Source: Gemmatimonadota bacterium (GTDB lineage Bacteria; Gemmatimonadota; Gemmatimonadetes; Longimicrobiales; Gaopeijiaceae). From it: a stretch of 64,000 nucleotides of DNA. This document shows, piece after piece, positions 207 through 41,495 of the stretch; position 1 is the stretch's first letter; the number at the start of each line of letters is the position of its first letter. The stretch covers positions 62,001-126,000 of the forward strand of contig DQPL01000131.1 in assembly GCA_015664885.1 (NCBI GenBank). The letters run 5' to 3'. The translations under genes and the position numbers were made by a program. The notes below the pieces were generated by a model that saw only the letters and a list, made by a program, of their open reading frames with translations, did no database searches and was not told the origin of the DNA.

Positions 207-235
207 CCCCGTCCGCCGCTTCGCGGCAGACGGGG
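207..235 (-). terminator. Hairpin just past the RNase P RNA 3' end (possible terminator)
   Basis: CCCCGTC at 207-213 pairs with GACGGGG at 229-235. After one C/A mismatch, five more G-C pairs close a TTC loop. The hairpin starts two bases beyond the inferred rnpB 3' end, where a terminator would be expected, but there is no T tract on the minus strand. It may be a weak or processing-type terminator. Confidence 0.4.
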
Positions 236-236
236 T

Positions 237-597
<361 letters not shown>

Positions 598-38187: not shown

Positions 38188-39095
38188 AAGGCGGGGTTCC
38201 GCTCGCCTTCTTGGCGATCGTGGCTGCTGTCTGGATCGCGCTGCGACTCTCGCAAGGTCCGCCGACAGAGCTTGCGATGGACGCGCGACCTCCCACCGCA
38301 ACAGGCAACGTGGAAGGCTTTCGAGTGGACGCCTGGTTTCTCCCCGACGAAGAGCTGCTCGGCTTCGTGGAAATTCCGGCCGGACCGTTCGTGATGGGCA
38401 GCGACGCGAGCGTGGATCCGGACGCCTTCGACATTGAGCGCTGGTCCAGCACGAGCGCGCAGGGAATCGTCGACCTGCCAGCCTTTTACTTGGCGCGGTA
38501 CGAAGTCACCGTCGCTCAAATGAGCGCCTTCCTGGTGGCCACAGCGGGCGCGATCCAAGCCCAGGCGCTTCAGACGCCTCCCGATCATCCCGCCGCCTTT
38601 GTCTCCTGGCCGGATGCGCTCGCCTACGCCGGCTGGATCGACGCGACGCTCAGGGAGTCCTCAGCCACGCCGCCACAACTAAGGGCCTTACTCAGCGACG
38701 GGTGGAGGATCACGTTGCCGACGGAGGCCGAGTGGGAGAAGGCGGCCCGGGGCGTCGACGGTCGCTTGTACCCGTGGGGGAGCGAGCCGAGGCAAGACCG
38801 TGCGAACTACAGCTCCAGGAGCGCGGTGCCGGTGGGCAGCTACGAATGCCCCGAATGTCCTTTTGGCCTCGCCGACATGGCCGGCAATGTCTGGGAGTGG
38901 ACCCGGAGCCCGGATCAGCCCTACCCCTACGACGCGACCGACGACGGAGAAGGCCTCGAAGCGGAAGCGCTGTGGATCATGCGCGGCGGCTCGTTTGGGG
39001 ACGGCCAGAGCGGCGTGCGCGCTGCCATGCGCGGGCGCGCGGACCCAGGAGCTCGGCGTGCGTTCATCGGCTTTCGTCTGGCGCTTGTTCGCTAG
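38184..39095 (+). CDS. Formylglycine-generating-enzyme (SUMF1)-fold protein with N-terminal anchor
   Basis: The 303-residue protein starts with an uncleaved-looking signal anchor (PLAFLAIVAAVWIALRL), placing the domain in the periplasm. The SUMF1 fold follows from about residue 60: FVEIPAGPFVMGSDA, FYLARYEVTVAQMSAFL, LPTEAEWEKAARGVDGRLYP, GLADMAGNVWEWTRSPD and RGGSF. The two catalytic cysteines of true formylglycine-generating enzymes, which lie near the C-terminus, are not seen; only CPEC before the GLADMAGN block is present. It is more likely a binding or lectin-like domain than a sulfatase activator. The start is fixed by overlap with the RnfD-like gene and was preferred over longer readings. 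Confidence 0.85.
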   Translation: MKGGVPLAFLAIVAAVWIALRLSQGPPTELAMDARPPTATGNVEGFRVDAWFLPDEELLGFVEIPAGPFVMGSDASVDPDAFDIERWSSTSAQGIVDLPAFYLARYEVTVAQMSAFLVATAGAIQAQALQTPPDHPAAFVSWPDALAYAGWIDATLRESSATPPQLRALLSDGWRITLPTEAEWEKAARGVDGRLYPWGSEPRQDRANYSSRSAVPVGSYECPECPFGLADMAGNVWEWTRSPDQPYPYDATDDGEGLEAEALWIMRGGSFGDGQSGVRAAMRGRADPGARRAFIGFRLALVR

Positions 39096-39284
39096 AGCGA
39101 CTCTTGCGCCTCGGTGGCGCTAGCCTTCGCCGCCCAAGCCGCGGAGGCGCCCTCGCTCGACTTGGCCGCGACGATGATGCTGCCGGCCGCGAGGTGTTGG
39201 TCGAGCGGGCCCGACTCGCCGCCTAGCATCCCGCCCAGGCGCGGAAGTCGGCACTCGAAGAACACCGTCGCCACGGTGCACGGT

Positions 39285-39815
39285 CTAGGAGTCCCCGCGA
39301 CCAGTGAGCCGCGCCACGACCTGCTCGATCACATCGTCCGCCCGAGCCTCGATCTCCTTCAGAGTCTGATCCTGTATGGGATGCGGGACGAAGACGGCTT
39401 CCAGGTCGGGTCGTCCCAGGCGGCTCGCCTGCACCCTGGCAGCGGTGCGGAACTCTTCCGTGGCTAAAGGCACGGCGGGGATTCCGGCTTCTTCGAGTCG
39501 AACGCTGTCGTGCAAACTGCACGTTGTGCAGGAGCCTCAGTCAGCCAGGGCTTCGATCACCCCGTCTACGAAGGCGAGCTTCTCGAGCAGCGCTCCGGGA
39601 GCGGGCTTGGTATAGGTCGGCTTGATCTCCCTAACGATCTCCGCGACTCCGTACCGTTGCTCGAGCAGGTGTTGTAACCGGTCCAGGAATTCCTTCCCTT
39701 GAGGCTTGCTGATGTCGAGCAGAGCGAGCCTCTTTCCCTCCAGCGTGTCGAGCCGGGGCGCAGCGGGCTGCGCTTCTCGGGAGCGCTCGTCGAGCGGGCT
39801 TACCAATGTAGGCAT
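39285..39815 (-). CDS. UGSC-motif selenoprotein; TGA at 39537-39539 read as selenocysteine
   Basis: The frame opens with ATG after AGGAG and runs 92 codons (thioredoxin-like strand KRLALLDISKPQGKEFLDRL) to VDGVIEALAD, then meets TGA. The same frame continues without another stop as GSCTTCSLHDSVRLEEAGIP to a TAG at 39285, giving 176 residues with Sec93 followed by C96 and C99. U-G-S-C-T-x-C-S-x-H-D is the signature of the UGSC family of (seleno)proteins, so the TGA is a recoded Sec codon and not a stop. A hairpin at 39509-39523 fits a bacterial SECIS. Function unknown; a redox role is likely. It lies 30 bp after its redoxin partner gene. Confidence 0.88.
39509..39523 (-). promoter_or_regulatory. 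Candidate bacterial SECIS hairpin for the UGSC selenoprotein
   Basis: On the mRNA, CGUGCA pairs with UGCACG around a GUU loop. The loop starts 20 nt after the UGA, within the usual 16-37 nt window, and has a G at its first position followed by U, as SelB recognition requires. The hairpin is inside the coding region, as bacterial SECIS elements are. A competing helix (CUGCAC/GUGCAG) overlaps its 5' arm. Confidence 0.6.
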
Positions 39816-39845
39816 GCGATCTCCTGTTGCTTGTCCGTGCCCATA

Positions 39846-41495
39846 TTACCGCTTGACCGGGTAGGTCACGCTCTGAGAGCCGCCCTCGCCCGCCAACCAG
39901 CCCGGCAAAACTCCGGAGAATTTTCCGGCCGTGCCGCCTGCCACGATGATGTGAATCTGCGACGGGTCCTTGAACTTGCGATAGTGGGGCTCACCGTCGA
40001 TCAGGACCTCTTGGTAGTGCCCAAGCGCCTGGCTCCCCTCCGTACCCTCGTACTCGAAGGCGCGCACGGGCACGCCGGTGTTTTCGAAGAGGAAGTCGCG
40101 TACGTCGCTCTTGGAGAACCCGTCGGCGCTCACGGTCGCCGCGTGCTCCGGGCACAATACCAGCACCGCCTCGACGCGTAGGCACCTCCTCCAGCTCCAG
40201 ACCATGGCCAGCGTGGCCGCGATCGTGCGCAGCACGCCCGCCGCGGTTCGCGCCGTGTGTTCGCTCACCTCCATGAGCCCACCCGCCGCGAAGAGCGTGA
40301 CCGTACTGTCGTCGGAGTCAAAACCGAGATCTTCGTGCAGCGGCTGCCACGGGCTGTGCTCGTGATTCTCGGCCACGCAGTATGAAAAGCGTCCGGGGTT
40401 GCCCAGCGCCGCCATGTCGATCTCTCCGGGCAGCGCACCGCCCAGGTTCGCCATCATGAGCTGCAGCGCCCGGCCGACGGAGCTGTTGGCGCGAGCCACG
40501 TTACCGAAGACCCCCGCACCGCTCGCGAAACCCAAGCGTTCGGCGGCCGGCCCACTGAGCATGATCAACGGAGTGGCGGAATTAGTGGTCGCTTGCACGC
40601 CATGCAAATTGAAGCGCTCGTCGCAAGCCGCCCGGACCACAGGGAGGAGAACCTCCAGGTATTCGGGTTTACACCCCGCCATCACCGCGTTTGCGGCGAT
40701 CTTCTCGATGGTGGCGGCCCCATAGCAGGGCGGCACCAGCCCCACGACACGTTCCGGTGGGTGTGGGATCGCTGCGAGCATGGCGTCGACGCGTTGTTCG
40801 GTAGGCGGCACCACTGGAAGGAACGGCGAAAAGCCCGCCTTCATGCAATACTCGTATGGATCTTCGTCCTCGGCCAACACGAAGCGTGTGGCGCGCGGTG
40901 CGCTCTCGGGAAGCAGATCGATCGGCTCGGGCGAAGGCTCTCGAGGTTGCTCGGCTCCGTCGGCTTCAGCGAGTGTGGCTGCCAGCGCGGCCTCGAGGTG
41001 GCGCGACGAGCACCCAGGCTTCGTCAGCGGGGCGCCGTCGTCGAGCTCCGCCACAGTGGTTGCACGAAGGTCCAGGCTCGAGAGCATGCTCGCTGCCACC
41101 GAGTTGAGATCTCCCTTGCTGAAGCCCACCTCGCAGAACTCGATCTGGCCCGCCTCGCCCAGTAGGAACAGCGCCGGGACCGCGGGCGGATCGTAGCTGC
41201 GGGACACGTCCAGATCAGCGTCCAGCAGCACCGGGAAGGTCACGCCGTAAGCCTCCACCAACTCGCGGGTCTCTTCTGCGCCGTCCTGCGAGACCACCAC
41301 GACTCGATGGCTGTCAGCACCGAGCGCCCCGGCCAGGCGCTTCAAGTACGGCAGAGTGAGCCGGCAGGTGGGACAGTCGGTTTCCATGAACGCGAGCAGG
41401 AGCGGCCCATCGGCCATCGCCTGCTGGAGCCGCCACTCGCTCCCGTCCAGCCAGCGGAGTGAGAAATCCGGCGCGCGGTCTCCCGTGGCGAGCAT
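39846..41495 (-). CDS. Redoxin domain fused to the UGSC-partner domain
   Basis: The 549-residue cytoplasmic protein starts with an AhpC/TSA-type redoxin domain (residues 1-145) with a CPTC active site (C41, C44). After KPGCSSR (about 160-165) and an acidic linker comes a second domain (about 213-549): EYCMKAGFSPFLPVVPPTEQ, EKIAANAVMAGCKPEYLEVL, FNLHGVQATTNSATPLIML and a final HIIVAGGTAGKFSGVLPGW. From memory this domain is repeatedly encoded beside UGSC proteins, and its function is not described. The gene ends 30 bp before the selenoprotein start and begins 17 bp after the DUF5916 gene. The CPTC site may recycle the partner's Sec; this is inference. Confidence 0.8.
   Translation of the reverse strand: MLATGDRAPDFSLRWLDGSEWRLQQAMADGPLLLAFMETDCPTCRLTLPYLKRLAGALGADSHRVVVVSQDGAEETRELVEAYGVTFPVLLDADLDVSRSYDPPAVPALFLLGEAGQIEFCEVGFSKGDLNSVAASMLSSLDLRATTVAELDDGAPLTKPGCSSRHLEAALAATLAEADGAEQPREPSPEPIDLLPESAPRATRFVLAEDEDPYEYCMKAGFSPFLPVVPPTEQRVDAMLAAIPHPPERVVGLVPPCYGAATIEKIAANAVMAGCKPEYLEVLLPVVRAACDERFNLHGVQATTNSATPLIMLSGPAAERLGFASGAGVFGNVARANSSVGRALQLMMANLGGALPGEIDMAALGNPGRFSYCVAENHEHSPWQPLHEDLGFDSDDSTVTLFAAGGLMEVSEHTARTAAGVLRTIAATLAMVWSWRRCLRVEAVLVLCPEHAATVSADGFSKSDVRDFLFENTGVPVRAFEYEGTEGSQALGHYQEVLIDGEPHYRKFKDPSQIHIIVAGGTAGKFSGVLPGWLAGEGGSQSVTYPVKR

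Follow-up and report, generated by a model that had tools for sequence, protein, structure and literature searches.

A UGSC-family selenoprotein gene from a Gemmatimonadota-like genome and its obligate thioredoxin-fused partner

UGSC-containing proteins have been on record since a GOS study of 2008 (PMC2398784). There, a thioredoxin-like fold is supposed for UGSC, and Figure S1A gives a fusion of UGSC with a domain named ‘Unknown_1’. Two other described systems bear on the locus reported here. The first is GrdB, whose motif is UxxCxxC (PMC13188914); for glycine reductase, a carbon–selenium adduct and a selenenylsulfide are published proposals (PMC10298544). The second is the group of ResA/TlpA thiol-disulfide oxidoreductases, with a CPTC motif in a thioredoxin fold.

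Our locus lies in a 64,000-nt stretch of DNA (the window) from a Gemmatimonadota-like MAG. The following features make up the gene:

39285-39815, minus strand: gene of a UGSC-family selenoprotein of 176 residues, Sec at residue 93, closed by TAG (frame reading and profile matches)
39821-39825, minus strand: AGGAG, 5 nt upstream of the ATG, a likely ribosome-binding site (sequence)
39537-39539, minus strand: in-frame TGA decoded as Sec93, the U of UGSCTTC (TGA in 57/57 and 120/120 homologues of the two sets described below)

The original prediction had joined two adjacent minus-strand frames into one gene with no further stop, and this reading holds. From the ATG at 39815, the TGA at codon 93 is the sole internal stop before TAG closes the frame at 39285, and the sequence across it is ...VIEALAD-U-GSCTTCSLHD, with TGA at the U of the motif U93-G-S-C-T-T-C. 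The Pfam model PF24696 matches residues 4-171 of the product (E 1.2e-49, 169 bits, cut-off 25), thus a single domain spans the TGA. The NCBIfam model NF041046, ‘UGSC family (seleno)protein’, also matches, with 146 bits against a curated cut-off of 125, in agreement with the predicted family. The gene had moreover been called a hidden selenoprotein; ‘selenoprotein’ stands, but ‘hidden’ was overstated, since the family was described in 2008 and has models in both databases. Hence the window gene adds a member to a known family and is not a discovery. It shares with this family (NF041046, PF24696; PMC2398784) the domain match, the UGSC motif, the TGA and a SECIS-like hairpin, and differs in nothing essential. 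No relative was found among 30 pattern matches in viral contigs, and a sequence search of the PDB returned no credible UGSC relative. Convergent with the UGSC gene is a gene with a formylglycine-generating-enzyme (FGE-sulfatase) domain (window 38438-39226, plus strand), and a bacterial RNase P RNA of class A (293 bits) lies at window 232-597, minus strand.

The gene directly upstream of UGSC, of which the original prediction made no mention, stops 30 nt short of the start of UGSC and has the following parts:

39846-41495, minus strand: partner gene, 549 aa, a thioredoxin-like part and an unnamed C-terminal domain (adjoins UGSC in 118/121 loci)
41076-41495, minus strand: thioredoxin-fold domain of ResA/TlpA type, spanning partner residues 1-140 and carrying CPTC (PF00578/PF08534; ResA fold match)
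41010-41012, minus strand: codon of the invariant Cys162 (PGC); in 14 actinobacterial genomes the matching codon is TGA
39849-40928, minus strand: conserved domain of partner residues 190-549, for which neither Pfam nor NCBIfam has a model (confident structure prediction)

In 118 of 121 loci the C-terminal part of this partner stands beside UGSC, upstream in all except one fused locus (L072), and the three loci without a visible partner are contig edges. An all-against-all BLAST of 4208 ORFs found no third neighbour recurring everywhere: only the partner, UGSC and their antisense frames were ubiquitous, and other clusters were limited to small groups of loci. Within the partner, C41 and C44 of the CPTC motif and C162 are invariant, and C275 and C373 nearly so. 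Its structure model has a mean pLDDT of 91, and the N-terminal domain takes a thioredoxin fold that matches ResA (TM 0.86-0.88 on target). The partner thus shares CPTC and fold with the ResA/TlpA oxidoreductases but differs from them by fusion to a further, large domain; its C-terminal 360 residues, which make up this domain, gave no Pfam or NCBIfam match up to E 5, and the PDB sequence search with the partner returned thioredoxins only.

When the partner was searched for across the phylum, a UGSC paralogue adjoined every one of the 26 matches. Nearly all of these paralogues carry TGA, with one Cys form, at locus L220 (2727-3131, plus strand), where TGC takes the place of the Sec codon beside a partner domain lacking the thioredoxin part. 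Eleven of the 26 matches are distant forms with 37-44% identity, and most of the eleven have no thioredoxin domain; hence fusion of the electron source is not universal. At locus L072 (1641-3197, plus strand), a distant UGSC-like domain and the partner C-domain are read in one frame through a TGA, and the Sec motif of this fused form (GH-TGA-STCAP) differs from UGSC. The UGSC/Unknown_1 fusion (PMC2398784) is like L072 in that UGSC is joined to a conserved unknown domain, and the window differs from it in that a gene of its own encodes the domain, together with a thioredoxin part. We infer that the partner C-domain is the Unknown_1 of that study.

The UGSC model (pLDDT 87.8) alternates strands and helices, and the Sec follows strand 3 and precedes helix 3. 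Compared with the PDB, it gave weak matches only (TM 0.4-0.5), to flavodoxin, lumazine-synthase and TIR folds, and no thioredoxin was among the 50 PDB matches listed, so that a thioredoxin-like fold for the Sec domain was rejected. In this model the UGSC fold would be partly flavodoxin-like, of the flavodoxin/Rossmann kind and not the thioredoxin kind. At the sequence level, 36 of 65 UGSC members match TIGR01917 (GrdB) around the Sec, with a best E of 2.5e-6, and Sec93, Cys96 and Cys99 are invariant and form the UxxCxxC of GrdB/PrdB. UGSC therefore shares this motif with GrdB/PrdB and resembles them, weakly but recurrently, in profile matches near the Sec, and the pair probably also shares their two-subunit organisation. 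On the other hand, the window protein scored 21 bits against the TIGR01917 cut-off of 602, far too low for membership of the GrdB family, and UGSC has no counterpart of the first two thirds of GrdB. The partner C-domain was also tried as a GrdE/PrdA-type subunit, and this candidate was dropped as no Pfam or NCBIfam model matched; in this the partner is unlike those of GrdB/PrdB. Moreover, UGSC occurs in genomes of many phyla, not only in amino-acid-fermenting anaerobes.

Based on the non-thioredoxin fold, the GrdB profile matches and the UxxCxxC shared with GrdB, we favour a GrdB-like role. We give even weight for and against the proposal that UGSC and the unnamed domain of its partner form a two-subunit, selenol-dependent reductase resembling the Sec subunit of glycine/proline reductase. 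In such an enzyme, the Sec selenolate of UGSC would attack a substrate held on the large subunit, i.e. the partner, and a selenenylsulfide would then form between Sec93 and a Cys of the UxxCxxC motif. The fused thioredoxin-like domain with its CPTC would re-reduce this selenenylsulfide, with Cys162 as a possible relay, and in one actinobacterial clade the relay Cys of the partner would itself have become Sec. By analogy with glycine reductase, both a carbon–selenium adduct and a selenenylsulfide may occur in the UGSC pair. The obligate partner, the L072 fusion, the likeness to GrdB, the thioredoxin domain and the exchange of Cys162 for Sec all speak for this arrangement; against it stand the GrdB matches that are far below cut-off and confined to the Sec region, the distant paralogues mostly without a thioredoxin domain, and the partner C-domain without a GrdE/PrdA match.

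Some of the same features are also typical of a plain thiol-disulfide or peroxide-type oxidoreductase, namely the UxxC motif, the fused thioredoxin domain and the Sec/Cys exchange, and reviews assume a redox role for UGSC (PMC13188914). UGSC would then act as a redox carrier, reducing disulfides or peroxides with no Sec–carbon adduct, and the large partner domain would be the target-binding part. We regard this as possible but rather doubtful, because the UGSC model is not thioredoxin-like, its sequence resembles GrdB, and the large conserved domain of the obligate partner, which has invariant polar residues, resembles a substrate site.

Decoding of the TGA was considered from the genome, the homologues and the RNA. 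The source genome (3.96 Mb, 99% complete), which among named genomes is closest to Gemmatimonadota/Longimicrobiales MAGs, encodes selA, selB, selD and a tRNA-Sec with anticodon UCA, i.e. the whole set that the original prediction had asked to be looked for. Its selD (L019, G000:C51:8526-9452) contains an in-frame TGA of its own, which probably makes SelD a further selenoprotein. Since 18 of 30 long ORFs of the window end in TGA, its commonest stop, there is no genome-wide recoding. A search of 295 related genomes with NF041046, a profile search that is blind to the codon at the Sec position, gave 57 matches in 54 genomes, and every match had exactly one internal stop, which was always TGA. The same codon was found at all 120 loci with a readable motif in a set of 121 (80 from named genomes of many phyla; this set and that of the profile matches have some genomes in common). 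Natural ends at position 92, which had been named as a sign against the joined reading, occur in none of the family members found; all run on with GSC or a close variant.

A hairpin had been predicted just downstream of the TGA, and it exists:

39509-39523, minus strand: SECIS-like hairpin CGUGCA-GUU-UGCACG, 13 nt after the TGA (conserved and covarying in 93 distinct sequences)

The stem pairs 39518-39523 with 39509-39514 around the loop GUU at 39515-39517. In the window itself neither stability alone (66-nt fold, z = +0.70) nor the synonymous-recoding test (p = 0.12) was significant, thus stability in the window was not used as evidence, and support for the hairpin comes from its conservation and covariation in relatives. 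Among 66 distinct UGSC sequences, the hairpin is more stable than synonymous recodings, with a mean z of -2.5 and p < 0.05 in 59% of them. In the 93 distinct sequences, the last bases of the fifth and ninth codons downstream of the TGA pair as GC in 60, GU in 16, AU in 17 and AC in 0, i.e. this key wobble pair is never broken (Fisher p 7e-10, with kinship among sequences not corrected for), and in one sequence those of the sixth and eighth codons change jointly from CG to UA. As these are silent sites, their covariation is not explained by the protein. By conservation and covariation in relatives, the hairpin qualifies as a putative bacterial SECIS element.

UGA misreading is known in bacteria, and the TGA might be read by near-cognate decoding as another amino acid such as Trp. 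Nothing specific to the UGSC locus points this way, and we consider it very unlikely in view of the tRNA-Sec, SelB and SelA encoded in the genome, its SelD, itself with an in-frame TGA, the covarying hairpin just downstream, and the Cys at the Sec position of the distant homologue L220, which is the usual Sec/Cys exchange. Still less credible, to the point of being negligible, is a real stop, sequencing error or pseudogene with an untranslated second half, since, for all that TGA is the commonest stop in the window, the same TGA recurs in 120 loci of many phyla with an open and conserved frame after it, and the full Sec machinery is present. It is thus highly probable that the locus encodes a UGSC selenoprotein with Sec93 decoded in the usual bacterial way, together with an obligate partner.

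A second, candidate selenocysteine site was found in the partner itself. In two loci of Actinomycetota (L138 and L167), a TGA interrupts the partner frame and stands precisely where PGC(G/S)S has its invariant Cys. The partner was found in 174 of 347 genomes of the order containing both loci; the 14 partners closest to the query carry a single TGA each, in 14/14 at the invariant Cys, giving PG-U-GS, and in 14/14 of these genomes UGSC-TGA adjoins the partner. The 16 next-closest partners have TGC or TGT at that codon. Loci of the TGA form are L138, L167 and L173-L186. The 14 genomes group as a single clade (support 0.98) that lies within Cys forms, hence the Sec was probably gained. After the partner TGA there is a hairpin, GGUCGACCC-CGGGC-GGGUCGAC, with a compensatory CG/UA change in 3 of 13 distinct sequences, whereas several of its positions are unpaired in Cys-form partners. 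Recoding tests gave a mean z of -1.4 for Sec forms vs -0.1 for Cys forms; as the former value is modest, support for this hairpin comes mainly from the comparison with Cys forms. A few partner matches contain an internal TAA or TAG, which in the one inspected, L188, lies near the N-terminal edge of the match. The TGA match at L227 was rejected as a partner Sec, being a terminal stop only. The Sec-form partner is absent from the 2026 inventory of 119 families (PMC13188914) and from Pfam and NCBIfam, and is not mentioned in the main text of the deep-Sep study (PMC12013277), subscription papers, supplements and preprints being outside the search. From these sequence comparisons, the partner in 14 actinobacterial genomes appears to be a candidate selenoprotein.

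Taken alone, the window UGSC gene is an annotation correction and one of hundreds of UGSC selenoproteins, which are among the commonest selenoproteins in natural waters. Of greater interest than the gene itself are the partner and its clade-restricted Sec form. With a thioredoxin domain of its own, the obligate partner makes the proposed two-subunit enzyme testable. Our belief and doubt are about evenly balanced on whether the pair represents an uncharacterised two-subunit selenoenzyme class of many phyla, with GrdB-like chemistry and fed by a fused thioredoxin, in which an Acidimicrobiia clade gained a large-subunit Sec (PG-U-GS). The change of the partner Cys to Sec in one lineage would be a clear case of selenocysteine gain, and it points to a cysteine that likely exchanges electrons with the active site.
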